This document shows, one piece after another, positions 41,597 to 46,838 of a DNA stretch of 64,000 nt (position 1 is its first letter; the number at the start of each line of letters is the position of its first letter). The stretch lies in the NCBI GenBank assembly GCA_032139905.1, contig JAQJDB010000007.1, positions 310,001-374,000 of the forward strand. The letters are read 5' to 3'. Origin of the DNA: Nitrospira sp. MA-1 (GTDB lineage Bacteria; Nitrospirota; Nitrospiria; Nitrospirales; UBA8639). The notes under the pieces are model-generated. The model was not told the DNA's origin. It saw only the letters and a program-made list of their open reading frames with translations, and did not search any database. The position numbers and the translations under genes were made by a program.

Positions 41597-41636
41597 GTTA
41601 GATTCTTGCGTGCCGAAGAGGGAAGAGAAAATATAA

Positions 41637-42689
41637 ATGATGAATAAAGAACTTGAAAAGCTGTTTAATCCTCCATGGTTAGAATCAATTAAGAGACTCC
41701 AAAAGCAGACGGATCTTGCTATTTTAGCGTTACGAGAGTCTGAAGCTTTACGCTCCATCAAAACACTAGGTGAATCTGCCAGGCTGGCTTCTTTAGCATT
41801 TTGTGAATCGGACCTAATGAAGACTGCTCGGATGGTTGCAGAAAGCAGCAAACTGGCGTCGCTCGCGTTCCGCGAGTCAGATGCCATGAGGTTAATCAAA
41901 GAGATGACAGAATCAAGTCGCTTTGCTGCACTCGCATTGCAAGAATCAGAAGCAATGAAATCTTTCAGAGCTGTTGCGGAATCAACTAGATTATCTGCTA
42001 TTGCATTCCAGCAATCTGAGACGACAAAGCAACTCAAGTGTCTCGCTGAAACCAGCCAGCTAGCTTCTATTGCGCTAAAGCAATCGAAAGCTTTTGAAAA
42101 GTTGTCACAGCTCAGCAATCTGGAGTCATTTAAAGCTCTTTCTCGCTTGATAAATTCTCCGTTCCCTGAACAGGCATCTTTAGCGTTTGTGATAGATATG
42201 GCGTATTCAGAAGCGATTGACGACTCTCTTATAGAAATAGATGCTGAAATAAGAGAAGAAATATCGTCCGTAACTGACTTTAATGCGCTACCAGAAAAAA
42301 CAAAAAGTATCTTACTTTACCTGTATCACACCTATTTTTTGCCGGTTTTATTAAGCTGTTTGTCGGCATACGTAATGACAAATGCGGTTAAAGCTAAAAT
42401 AGAAACTGTTAGAGTAACCACGCCTGGTGAGGCGAGAGCTTTTGTTAGAGAGACCAACAGAAAATTCGATCGGTCTGCGTTAAAAGCGTTTCGTATCACA
42501 ACAGCTAATGCATTGAACTTTAGAGACAATTCCAGCATGAAATCTGAAATTATCACGACTCTGCCAGTTGGAACTTTGGTCGAAGTTATAGATAAATCCA
42601 ATCGGTCTTGGCTACTCGTTGAAGTCGAAATTGATGGTGAACTTGAGCAAGGATGGATTTTTAGACGTTACACAGCGTATTTCAGATGA
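41637..42689 (+). CDS. Cassette-borne protein with six 23-residue repeats and a C-terminal SH3-like domain
   Basis: A 350-residue protein carried by cassette 1. Residues 23-160 are six tandem copies of a 23-residue unit of the form ESxxLASLAFxESxxMKxxRxxA, predicted to form amphipathic helices. A hydrophobic stretch near 225-245 (LLYLYHTYFLPVLLSCLSAYV) may be a transmembrane helix. The C-terminus (about 285-350) resembles a bacterial SH3 domain (ALNFRDNSSMKSEIITTLPVGTLVEVIDKSNRSWLLVE split over its strands). The gene is AT-richer than the core genome. Function unknown; a role at the envelope is possible. Confidence 0.72.
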   Translation: MMNKELEKLFNPPWLESIKRLQKQTDLAILALRESEALRSIKTLGESARLASLAFCESDLMKTARMVAESSKLASLAFRESDAMRLIKEMTESSRFAALALQESEAMKSFRAVAESTRLSAIAFQQSETTKQLKCLAETSQLASIALKQSKAFEKLSQLSNLESFKALSRLINSPFPEQASLAFVIDMAYSEAIDDSLIEIDAEIREEISSVTDFNALPEKTKSILLYLYHTYFLPVLLSCLSAYVMTNAVKAKIETVRVTTPGEARAFVRETNRKFDRSALKAFRITTANALNFRDNSSMKSEIITTLPVGTLVEVIDKSNRSWLLVEVEIDGELEQGWIFRRYTAYFR

Positions 42690-42761
42690 ATCTAACTAAG
42701 CGCTGCTTTCGGATAAATTTTACGCTGGGCTCTAAATTTGCCGCAGAGCGCGGCGTTCAGC
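42690..42761 (+). other. attC site 1
   Basis: 72 bases. R'' ATCTAAC at 42690-42696, L'' GCGCTGC at 42700-42706, L' as GCAG (42743-42746) plus CGC (42749-42751) separated by two extrahelical bases, R' GTTCAGC at 42755-42761. The unpaired bases give the asymmetry that selects the recombining strand. It immediately follows the stop codon of the cassette 1 gene. Confidence 0.8.
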
Positions 42762-42954
42762 CGACCGCAGGCGGCGGACGGGGTGCTGACGGAGTTGACG
42801 GGGGCCGTGGCTGCTCGACGTGAAATAGAGGGGAATTGATGAGCGGTCGGCTGAACAGAGTCGTGTCTGGCCGTGCGTTCCAGCCCCCCTGCGGCAACCG
42901 AACGCGCGGCTCGAATCGACGAGCCATCGGCCCGCCTCTCAGCCGCGCACTCTG
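42756..42954 (+). mobile_element. Cassette 2, about 199 bp with no substantial ORF
   Basis: The cassette opens with TTCAGCCGACCGC, and its complement GCGGTCGGCTGAAC at 42843-42856 starts the attC. No ORF over about 45 codons fits inside; a frame of 43 codons beginning at the ATG near 42839 runs through the attC into the next cassette. A near-copy forms cassette 4. Such cassettes may carry a promoter or a small RNA. Confidence 0.75.
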
Positions 42955-42960
42955 TTATGC
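42850..42960 (+). other. attC site 2
   Basis: 111 bases. R'' GCTGAAC at 42850-42856 and R' GTTATGC at 42954-42960. AACAGAGT (42854-42861) pairs fully with ACTCTGTT (42949-42956), and an inner arm pairs GGCCGTGCGTTC (42869-42880) with GAACGCGCGGC (42900-42910). Confidence 0.75.
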
Positions 42961-42978
42961 CGCCTCGTAGGTCCGAAA

Positions 42979-43743
42979 ATGTCCAGTTCTCCTACTGACC
43001 ATCGCCCACTCCAGGGCGGCGTACTAATCATCGGCTCGCTCCTTTGGCGTGAAGATGACATCCGGTCAAAGTGGCGGAGCCGTCTAGATATGGAGCGAAA
43101 GCAGCGTATTCATGCTCCAATACGGTATGGCCGACTGTCTGCAAAAAACACCGATAGTCCGTCGTACACCATGGTTTTCGCGCGTTCCTGCGCGCGACCT
43201 CGGCGGCGTCTCGGCACAGCGTGGGCGGTCCCGTTTCGAACACCAACGGATGGGGAGGAGGAATTGAGGGTCGAAGCCTCGGAGCTTGCGCGGGCAGAGA
43301 CAAATCGCGCGACCTATAGTCAACTGTCTAATGACTGGTTTACCGTGGGCATCATTGTCAATCCACACAGCCCAATGCGCCGCGACATTCAGAAGTGGTG
43401 GGGCCGAGTCTATGGGCAAATTCGGGATGATCACGACCTTCGACGTATCCATCTGAAGTCTGAAGGATCCATCATCACTCGTGACGGCTGTGTTCGCGTA
43501 TCGTGGCCGGACATCGTGGAAAGTGGCGGCACGCTCGATTACGATTACCTGCTCGCCACGCCAACAGTCCCGGAGATCAGCGGTGGTCGGTATCCAACCG
43601 TGCGGCAGATCGCGTCTTCTTGGGCTAGAAACGACGAGTACTTCCGACGAAACATTGATTCTTTCATAACCACGGCCCAGGACCGCGAGCTCCAGAAGCA
43701 CTTGGAGCGCGGGCGTTCAGTCGGCGGCATAACGGAGGTGTGA
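42979..43743 (+). CDS. Cassette-borne protein of unknown function
   Basis: A 254-residue soluble protein in cassette 3, unrecognised. The opening GGVLIIGSLLW followed by a PIRYGRLS segment loosely recalls the YGSL motif region of gamma-glutamylcyclotransferase-like folds, but this is not enough to assign it. Its coding sequence reaches into the attC R'' box; the stop codon follows ten bases later. It is flanked on both sides by the two related ORF-less cassettes. Confidence 0.65.
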   Translation: MSSSPTDHRPLQGGVLIIGSLLWREDDIRSKWRSRLDMERKQRIHAPIRYGRLSAKNTDSPSYTMVFARSCARPRRRLGTAWAVPFRTPTDGEEELRVEASELARAETNRATYSQLSNDWFTVGIIVNPHSPMRRDIQKWWGRVYGQIRDDHDLRRIHLKSEGSIITRDGCVRVSWPDIVESGGTLDYDYLLATPTVPEISGGRYPTVRQIASSWARNDEYFRRNIDSFITTAQDRELQKHLERGRSVGGITEV

Positions 43744-43851
43744 AGCTGACGGGCGGATTGTTCTGTCGCGGAGCTGCTGGTGAGAACTCGTATCGCAGTT
43801 CAGTTGGTGTTCCGCTGGTGTGGCCCGCAGCTTACACTAATTGCGTTCAGC
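43727..43851 (+). other. attC site 3
   Basis: 125 bases. R'' GCATAAC at 43727-43733 and R' GTTCAGC at 43845-43851. The inner arms GTGTGAAGCTGACGGGC (43738-43754) and GCCCGCAGCTTACAC (43823-43837) pair almost completely, with two extrahelical bases, as in a canonical attC hairpin. Confidence 0.82.
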
Positions 43852-44043
43852 CGACCGCAGGCGGCGGACGGGGTGCTGACAAAGTTGAAGGGGCTGTGGC
43901 TACTCGATGTGGGATAGATTGAAATTGATGAGCGGTCGGCTGAACAGAGACCTCGTCTGGCCGTGCGTACCCGCCGCCTTCGGCAGCCGAACGCGCGGCT
44001 CGAATCGACGGGCCTCCGCCCCACCACTCAATTGCGGACTCTA
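43846..44043 (+). mobile_element. Cassette 4, near-copy of ORF-less cassette 2
   Basis: About 198 bases beginning with the same TTCAGCCGACCGCAGGCGGC as cassette 2 and highly similar throughout, with differences clustered in the centre and near the 3' end. A 39-codon frame starting near 43928 (MSGRLNRDL...) shares its first seven residues with the corresponding frame of cassette 2. Confidence 0.75.
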
Positions 44044-44049
44044 TTAGCC
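43939..44049 (+). other. attC site 4 with an altered crossover base
   Basis: 111 bases. R'' GCTGAAC at 43939-43945. The R' box reads ATTAGCC at 44043-44049: the otherwise invariant G of the GTT crossover triplet is A. AACAGAG (43943-43949) pairs with CTCTATT with one mismatch. This site may recombine poorly. Confidence 0.68.
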
Positions 44050-44058
44050 CAAAAAAAC

Positions 44059-45183
44059 ATGGAACAAAAAGACAATAAATGGCCAGCTTCCAGGATAGTT
44101 CATCTGGTGGGAGGGTGTAGGGCAATAAATAATCAAGACCCAAAAGTTCAATTTGATCCACATACACTTGGGGGAAAACAAGCGCAATTTCAAATAAATC
44201 AATATGGTGCCATTTTCCACAGCCTGGAATCATTAGGGTTCGGCGTTATTGGTGTTGATTTCTATTCACATTTTTTGGAAGCAAAAGGAAGTGTACCTCC
44301 TAATTGGAGGTCATATCACCGAACAAGTCATACTTCATGGCCCACGGAAGAGGTCGCTCAAAAGTGGAGGAATATTGGCCATGCAGCATTTAAACAAAAA
44401 AATGGGAAATTATGGGACATTGCAAGTCGAATTGGATACCAATTAAGAGTGTGTGATTGGAGGCTCAGGGAAATTTCAGAAGCATACTGCAATCAACTTA
44501 TCGCACAAATTCAATTAAAGAGCTTTAAGGTCGGTCAAAAATATGAGGATGGTTTTTCTTGGTTATCTTATTTATCTATTCAGTCATTTTTAGTCGATGC
44601 CTGCATACTGAGGGATTATTTATCTGAATTCATGGCGGATTTTATTTACAACGGCACGGTTGAGTTGGGTAACCTCAGAATTACTGCTATGGGTGCCTTC
44701 AAAAAAAAGGTGTTAAATAAAATCACCGAACCTGACGGTTTTACACGAGAACTCATTTATGCAACCAGCAATGGTGGCTGGTTAACGTTACTTGGCAATT
44801 ACAGAGATATGGTCGTGCATTCTGCTCCACTTGTCCAAGCAGAAAGAAAATTATTTTCAGTATGTAATGAACTTAAAATTATTGGTGGTGGGAGCATGCC
44901 TATCATCTGTTGTCCAATTCCAGAAAACCCTGATGAAATTTCAAGCTCACGCTCAACAGGTAGCCATTTTGAAGATTTTGAAAAACAATTCAATGTTTTT
45001 GTCGAGGCTGCCAAAGGGGACATTCCAATGATTGATGGGCTGGACTATGCGAGTGCAGCTCTTGGTAATCTTGCAAAATTATCTGAAAAAGCGGCAGAAA
45101 AATCTCCAATTGTTCCGGAAATGATGGTAATTGACTCTTCTAATATTATTGGTGAAATAAAAACCACTAGACATATGGGCTAA
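44059..45183 (+). CDS. Cassette-borne protein, possibly HEPN-like
   Basis: A 374-residue protein in cassette 5. The open frame extends back to 43963 but that part is attC sequence read as protein, so the ATG at 44059 is used. It is strikingly AT-rich compared with flanking DNA, indicating foreign origin. Residues around NYRDMVVHSAPL fit the R-D-x3-H pattern of HEPN ribonuclease or HEPN-like helical bundles found in defence genes; the rest is unrecognised. The stop codon TAA lies within the attC R'' box. Confidence 0.65.
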   Translation: MEQKDNKWPASRIVHLVGGCRAINNQDPKVQFDPHTLGGKQAQFQINQYGAIFHSLESLGFGVIGVDFYSHFLEAKGSVPPNWRSYHRTSHTSWPTEEVAQKWRNIGHAAFKQKNGKLWDIASRIGYQLRVCDWRLREISEAYCNQLIAQIQLKSFKVGQKYEDGFSWLSYLSIQSFLVDACILRDYLSEFMADFIYNGTVELGNLRITAMGAFKKKVLNKITEPDGFTRELIYATSNGGWLTLLGNYRDMVVHSAPLVQAERKLFSVCNELKIIGGGSMPIICCPIPENPDEISSSRSTGSHFEDFEKQFNVFVEAAKGDIPMIDGLDYASAALGNLAKLSEKAAEKSPIVPEMMVIDSSNIIGEIKTTRHMG

Positions 45184-45254
45184 CCAGGCGCTGTACCAGA
45201 CTGGTTAAGGCTCCGTGGCGCTAAGGCCGCAAGTTCGGGGCTGGCTGGTTAGCA
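45178..45254 (+). other. attC site 5
   Basis: 77 bases. R'' GGCTAAC at 45178-45184 and R' GTTAGCA at 45248-45254. GCTAACCAG (45179-45187) pairs perfectly with CTGGTTAGC (45245-45253). Confidence 0.8.
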
Positions 45255-45272: not shown

Positions 45273-45635
45273 ATGAAGATTGTCGAATTTGCTTTTATCG
45301 TATATCCAGCCTCGGATCTGGCGCGGTCCCGTGCCTTTTATGAGGGCGTTCTCGGGCTCACCAGCGCGACTTCCATGGATCTGGCCGACGGATTCTGGGT
45401 CGAGTATGAGATCGGTCCTCACACGCTGGCCATCGGCAAAGAACCATTCCTGAAGCCCTCGGGCGATGGTCCTCAGCTTGTGCTGGAAGTGGACGATTTT
45501 GACAAGACGATAGAACATCTCAGACATCACAACGTGCAGTTTGCCCTTGAGCCTTTTGACCTTCCTCATTGCAGGGCAGCAATTGTTCTGGACCCCGACG
45601 GGAACAAGCTTGGTATCCATAGACGAAAGACCTAA
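45273..45635 (+). CDS. VOC (glyoxalase/bleomycin-resistance) family protein
   Basis: A 120-residue single VOC module-pair protein: SDLARSRAFYEGVLGL near the start and AIVLDPDGNKLGIHR at the end are the family signatures. Members bind metals and act as dioxygenases, isomerases or antibiotic-binding proteins; this one cannot be placed further. It is the ORF of the last readable cassette (starting at 45249). Its stop codon lies in an R''-like box ACCTAAC (45630-45636), but no matching second half follows. Confidence 0.85.
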   Translation: MKIVEFAFIVYPASDLARSRAFYEGVLGLTSATSMDLADGFWVEYEIGPHTLAIGKEPFLKPSGDGPQLVLEVDDFDKTIEHLRHHNVQFALEPFDLPHCRAAIVLDPDGNKLGIHRRKT

Positions 45636-46778: not shown

Positions 46779-46838
46779 GCCTAACACGCTGGGCTCAAAC
46801 AGGGGCGGTCCCTTACTTGAGCGTCAGTCCGGTTGGGC
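46779..46838 (+). other. Additional compact attC-like site (60 bp)
   Basis: R'' GCCTAAC (46779-46785) and R' GTTGGGC (46832-46838) both match the consensus boxes. GCTCAA and TTGAGC pair inside, and AGGG with CCCT form the terminal stem. At 60 bases this is the classic size. The cassette start complementary to its R'' was not found upstream. Confidence 0.6.

Follow-up and report, generated by a model that had tools for sequence, protein, structure and literature searches.

The window, a 64,000-nucleotide stretch of DNA from a 4.76-Mb Nitrospira genome (G000), contained an array of five cassettes, c1 to c5, which tile without gaps between sua5-like and PIN genes on one side and a VOC/glyoxalase-like gene on the other (Table 1). 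Cassette boundaries were set by the crossover rule G^TT (G^TTRRRY) together with the terminal inverted repeats present in every cassette. Five attC sites lie within 42688-45248; two or more such sites with no integrase make a CALIN. Complete integrons carry intI beside the array, and a TIGR02249 scan found no integron integrase over the family cut-off in G000 or any of the 19 congeners, and because of this we class the array as a CALIN. The c1 protein (41637-42689) comprises degenerate repeats of ~24 residues (..ESxxLASLAFxESDAM..) followed by the SH3_3 domain, with no other family match. Searches of Pfam, NCBIfam and PADLOC gave no match for the proteins of c3 (ORF 42979-43743) and c5 (ORF 44060-45183), and the genes of c1, c3 and c5 had no homologues among the other arrays compared.

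Table 1. Features of the cassette array, in positions of the window.
Feature	Position	Strand	Remarks
c1, gene cassette	41598-42755	+	350-aa ORF, C-terminal SH3_3 domain; attC 42688-42755
c2, complete gene-less cassette	42756-42954	+	199 bp, 68% GC; from crossover boundaries, terminal inverted repeat and family search
c2 left arm	42755-42768	+	GTTCAGCCGACCGC; 14-bp terminal inverted repeat, whose first G precedes the crossover
c2 short frame	42839-42970	+	MSGRLNRVVSGR...; 43 aa, spans the c2 attC
c2 right arm	42843-42856	+	GCGGTCGGCTGAAC; holds the attC R'' box; partner of the left arm in the circle
c2 attC (R''...R')	42849-42961	+	lineage-type, ~110 bp; R2 model 109.9 bits; long bottom-strand hairpin
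c3, gene cassette	42955-43845	+	254-aa ORF, no family match; attC from 43723
c4, complete gene-less cassette	43846-44043	+	198 bp, 63% GC; from boundaries and identity to c2
c4 left arm	43845-43858	+	14-bp terminal inverted repeat
c4 short frame	43928-44047	+	MSGRLNRDLVWPC...; 39 aa, stop is the R' TAG of c4
c4 right arm	43932-43945	+	with R''
c4 attC	43938-44050	+	R2 model 114.1 bits; DNA fold
c5, gene cassette	44044-45248	+	374-aa ORF from ATG 44060, no family match; attC 45176-45248
VOC/glyoxalase-like gene	45273-45635	+	array end

Both c2 and c4 consist of a GC-rich payload of ~90 bp followed by an attC of ~110 bp, and neither contains an ORF longer than 46 codons. A first-pass annotation of this DNA had described them as ORF-less cassettes on either side of a single gene cassette, c3, and had drawn their limits exactly where the crossover rule and the inverted repeats place them; it had also noted that both keep a short frame beginning MSGRLNR, and both do. 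Its claim of about 35 exactly shared starting bases was borne out, with 38 found when the GCG before the crossover is counted, but its term "near-identical" was too strong for a pair with an overall identity of 84% (E about 1e-54). By their crossover ends and their attC sites, whose bottom strands fold with R'' paired to R', c2 and c4 are integron cassettes, as had been proposed, and their recombination by an integrase is predicted. Both start with TTCAGC, which puts a C where the R' box would have its first of three purines (R). The final base of c4 is A, giving the core ATT instead of GTT at the border of c4 and c5, a change expected to disable the site, given the GTT core of such sites.

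Every cassette starts with the reverse complement of its own R'' arm, over 9, 14, 11, 14 and 9 bp from c1 to c5, so that the longest arms in the array belong to the two gene-less cassettes. When the cassettes were folded as DNA in circular form, the bottom strand of c2 reached -49.2 kcal/mol against -27.1 kcal/mol for shuffled sequences, and that of c4 reached -43.4 kcal/mol against about -25; the consensus of the family described below reached -56.8 kcal/mol, the shuffles for all three lying between -25 and -30. Across the family, the 14-bp arms had accumulated 56 one-sided changes and 4 compensated ones, and the arms of resident copies thus decay without compensation. Lineage-type attC sites were also found on gene cassettes with other contents (L104 2170-2283, L020 569-680, L101 5521-5634 and L102 4377-4498), the likeness being strongest in the right half of the site and resembling the species-typical attC repeats of Vibrio.

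The first-pass annotation had suggested looking for the 200-bp sequence in other integron arrays, and copies were found there, in other arrays and other species. With the 199-bp c2 sequence as query, 13 of 59 relatives gave a match. A profile built from sequence alone over the 120-nt payload region detected the family in 12 of the 20 genus genomes and in 16 of 48 genomes of the bacterial family, including a few other genera; under strict filters, a scan of 295 genomes of the phylum picked out G000, one congener and G272, a genome from a different Nitrospirales family, and no others. Eighteen full-length copies could be placed in one alignment over their whole length. At the left boundary, identity between copies was 0.23-0.30 up to the base before G^TT and 0.6-0.7 from there on, and at the right it fell back to about 0.3 past the R' box. 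These sharp edges at the crossover points mean that the repeat unit is exactly the cassette, which rules out the larger non-integron repeat that the first reading had named as the alternative. As a gene-less family we count one with no ORF over 150-210 bp, no codon signature and similarity over the full length; the 18 copies had frames of at most 46 aa, no codon signature and full-length homologues. The purD-sua5...VOC site is common to several congeners, and the gene-less cassette recurs there in seven genomes (G010, G018, G003, G012, G015, G017 and G016), and in five of them a copy lies immediately before the VOC gene. Further copies occur in other arrays of the same genomes, some of them beside toxin-antitoxin-like cassettes. 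Collections of plasmid, phage and viral sequences yielded no family match, the viral scan covering one exact 23-mer only, and spread by plasmids, phages or viruses was set aside.

The phylogeny of the 18 full copies is an almost perfect star centred on a single consensus. Distance to this consensus was 4.8% for the closest copy (H41), 9.2% for c2, 10.6% for c4 and 35% at most; the mean pairwise distance was 0.304 against the 0.319 expected under a pure star, and 12 of 15 inner branches of the tree were unresolved. Mutation was biased from GC to AT (C>T 12.6%, G>A 10.8%; A>G 6.9%, T>C 5.7%), and the mismatch rate in the payload core, 0.174, was close to the 0.175 that base composition predicts. 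Differences in the payload were no rarer than in the attC, change being slightly lower in the R'' arm and the right attC half and higher in the left attC half. Invariant columns numbered 14 against 5.8 +- 2.4 under a model of no constraint, and since the columns are more uneven than this null, the family was under some constraint, at least while it was mobile. It had been suggested that c2 and c4 arose by repeated capture of one circular cassette. Duplication from a single circle was not favoured, as c4 shares 7 non-consensus states with a copy in another species (G016a) and only 4 with c2, and the best tree does not join c2 and c4 in a clade; an AU test did not reject such a clade (p = 0.365). 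To judge from these comparisons, local duplication need not explain the pair. Two more partial payload copies lie in the same genome, ~240 kb away.

An ORF-less cassette may supply a promoter or an RNA, as the first-pass annotation had supposed, and neither proposal gained support here. In the first case, the payload would provide a transcription start or a ribosome-binding site to the downstream cassette. Precedents exist in Vibrionaceae superintegrons, where promoters were measured in gene-less cassettes and most of 29 had sense promoters (NAR 2024; PMC11014356), and in Treponema, whose ORF-less cassettes from an oral metagenome showed promoter activity (Sci Rep 2019; PMC6557892). The Nitrospira cassettes are like the former in being gene-less, with a normal attC and a place between gene cassettes, and like the latter in joining an ORF-less cassette to an attC, with an unrelated host and sequence. 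The family consensus also has GGAGGG six to seven bases 5' of an ATG, and five species carry a copy directly before the same VOC gene. Unlike the tested Vibrionaceae cassettes, which are AT-rich and 491-666 bp long, c2 and c4 are ~200 bp long with 63-68% GC. No sigma-70-like site was found in 42600-44150 (0 against 0.7 expected, other promoter types being possible), which is weak evidence because the authors of the Vibrionaceae study state that promoters of such cassettes cannot be predicted in silico; a terminator scan of the same interval found none. The stretch from the Shine-Dalgarno motif to the ATG is lost in several copies, and the copies before the VOC gene are no more conserved than neutral sites, with an identity of 64-74% (pairs G010-G018, G018-G015 and G010-G015) against 79-85% at four-fold sites, a comparison that is weakened if these copies are independent insertions, as is possible. 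Separate insertions and unconstrained drift both speak against a conserved role at that position, and on our analysis a promoter or leader cassette appears unlikely.

Gene-less cassettes encoding regulatory RNAs are likewise known (PMC8876359, PMC6557892), and sRNA-Xcc1 of Xanthomonas (RF02221), a non-coding element of ~90 nt that numerous species have on their integron cassettes, is the parallel for an RNA gene in the payload. The parallel does not extend to the sequence, as RF02221 had no match in G000 and none over the gathering cut-off in any of the 20 genus genomes; an Rfam search returned no match at E <= 1. Neither RNAalifold, run on 17 payloads, nor a scan for pairwise covariation revealed a helix: the RNAalifold covariation term was positive and the covarying pairs do not stack as helices, and a conserved RNA fold was ruled out for lack of a coherent covarying helix. 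An RNA gene is a very improbable account. We think only slightly better of the idea that the family is the remnant of a gene cassette, a leader and attC left after deletion of the gene and then spread. Partial copies, copies joined to other DNA and gene cassettes with similar attC sites would suit such an origin, but the partial copies end at differing points, at least one of them beside a transposase-like ORF, which fits later damage; a deletion, if there was one, must predate the spread, since a single 200-bp form is common to most full copies; and no codon signal is left.

That the MSGRLNR frame encodes a small protein, or acts as a leader whose translation is coupled over the attC to that of the next cassette, we find scarcely credible. 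The consensus start region, GGAGGGAAATTGATGAG, invites this reading, c4 is one of several full copies with the frame open to the attC end, and its stop in c4 lies 12 nt upstream of the next ATG. Yet when intact frames were counted from the sequences themselves, only 6 of the 18 full copies (c2, c4, H41, G016a, G016b and G010a) retained an ATG and stayed open across the attC. Neither this frame nor the payload had three-base periodicity across the family (p = 0.61), and indels were mostly of 1-2 nt. A second frame (-1) of the GC-rich consensus is open as well, which shows how cheaply such frames arise. Absent periodicity, short indels and loss of the frame rule out a coding payload, and the short frames of c2 and c4 are probably no genes.

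We consider it rather probable that c2 and c4 are resident copies of a dispersed family of gene-less cassettes that was spread by an integrase, needed no benefit to the host and has since drifted. Comparison of the copies establishes the gene-less cassettes, their dispersal as a family and its star-like decay; for the spread itself we infer an integron integrase since lost or acting elsewhere, and little or no host benefit. The integrase has to be inferred because no integrase-bearing genome with a copy of the family was found. Integron integrases are present in two other genera of the family (G024 and G026) and in one genome of another family (G043); the payload had no match on contigs bearing integrases, nor the lineage attC near those of G024, G026 and G043, and an origin of the payload in the attI/intI region of relatives was set aside for want of a match. 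In the proposed mechanism, an integrase of the kind that other genera of the family and order possess and this genus now lacks would fold the bottom-strand attC, excise or capture the circle and place the cassette repeatedly in arrays. The attC stem, lengthened by the 14-bp arms, may make the site a good substrate. The cassette would then be a minimal recombination substrate from a master pool, travelling with the integron pool, and its resident copies would drift. In support of this reading, gene cassettes at the same site are without homologues in the arrays compared, whereas the gene-less cassette recurs. Taken together, the star phylogeny, mutation-biased drift and uncompensated arms point to hitch-hiking, the behaviour of a passenger repeat rather than of a regulated part. 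Absent constraint on resident copies could be compatible with a function in source hosts, and a promoter or RNA function is possible. More tentatively, and at somewhat less than even chances, the family may be a selfish minimal cassette, comparable in integrons to a MITE. It would have little in it beyond a recombination site whose arms are lengthened, and would have multiplied from a small number of master copies into many Nitrospirota arrays and then decayed there, with no host benefit.

Gene-less cassettes are a known kind. Paralogous families of non-coding cassettes were described in chromosomal integrons of Vibrio (BMC Evol Biol 2006; PMC1382264), with an example pair 84-88% identical, and the authors offered selfishness and a promoter or RNA function as alternatives. 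The Nitrospirales family resembles those in being non-coding, similar over the full length and without a codon signature, and in having multiple copies per array, also between species, within one bacterial group. It differs in its Nitrospirota host, its small integrase-less arrays and its GC-rich ~90 bp payload, and star-like decay is measurable here on 18 full copies. Two CALINs have been reported in Candidatus Nitrospira inopinata (PMC9024848), so that attC-bounded cassette arrays without intI were already known in Nitrospirota; that study counts arrays and does not describe a repeated gene-less cassette. We found no description of this Nitrospirota gene-less cassette family in the literature searched, and the family looks new. 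Ever since the 2006 Vibrio families, it has been open whether a non-coding cassette is of use or selfish, and the Vibrio and Treponema studies favour promoters. The Nitrospirales family is a contrasting case from another phylum, with copies enough for measuring decay, and its cassette is a ready marker of past integrase activity in a genus in which no integrase was found.

Several smaller features accompany the family in other arrays. Shortened payload copies were seen at L098 14452-14867 and L113 11225-11300, the cut copy in L098 being followed by an ORF whose N-terminus resembles, by eye, a REP-associated tyrosine transposase, which suggests that such transposase-like elements inserted in or near attC sites. 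A cassette gene of 105 aa (MCxKPSKKALxIAGQAxQRMCQKLG) occurs in three arrays (L098, L104 and L113), in L098 and L113 directly before a gene-less copy. In two species (L099 1410-1899 and L105 3963-4563), a small addiction-module-like cassette, the same in both (MKITSADALELTV / MKNTAADALELSV), follows the gene-less one, and the two cassettes are possibly a linked pair moving together. Within the window, a solitary attC-like site of ~60 bp (46780-46838, GCCTAAC...GTTGGGC) lies downstream of an SDR gene and has an attC hairpin fold on its bottom strand (z = -1.7).
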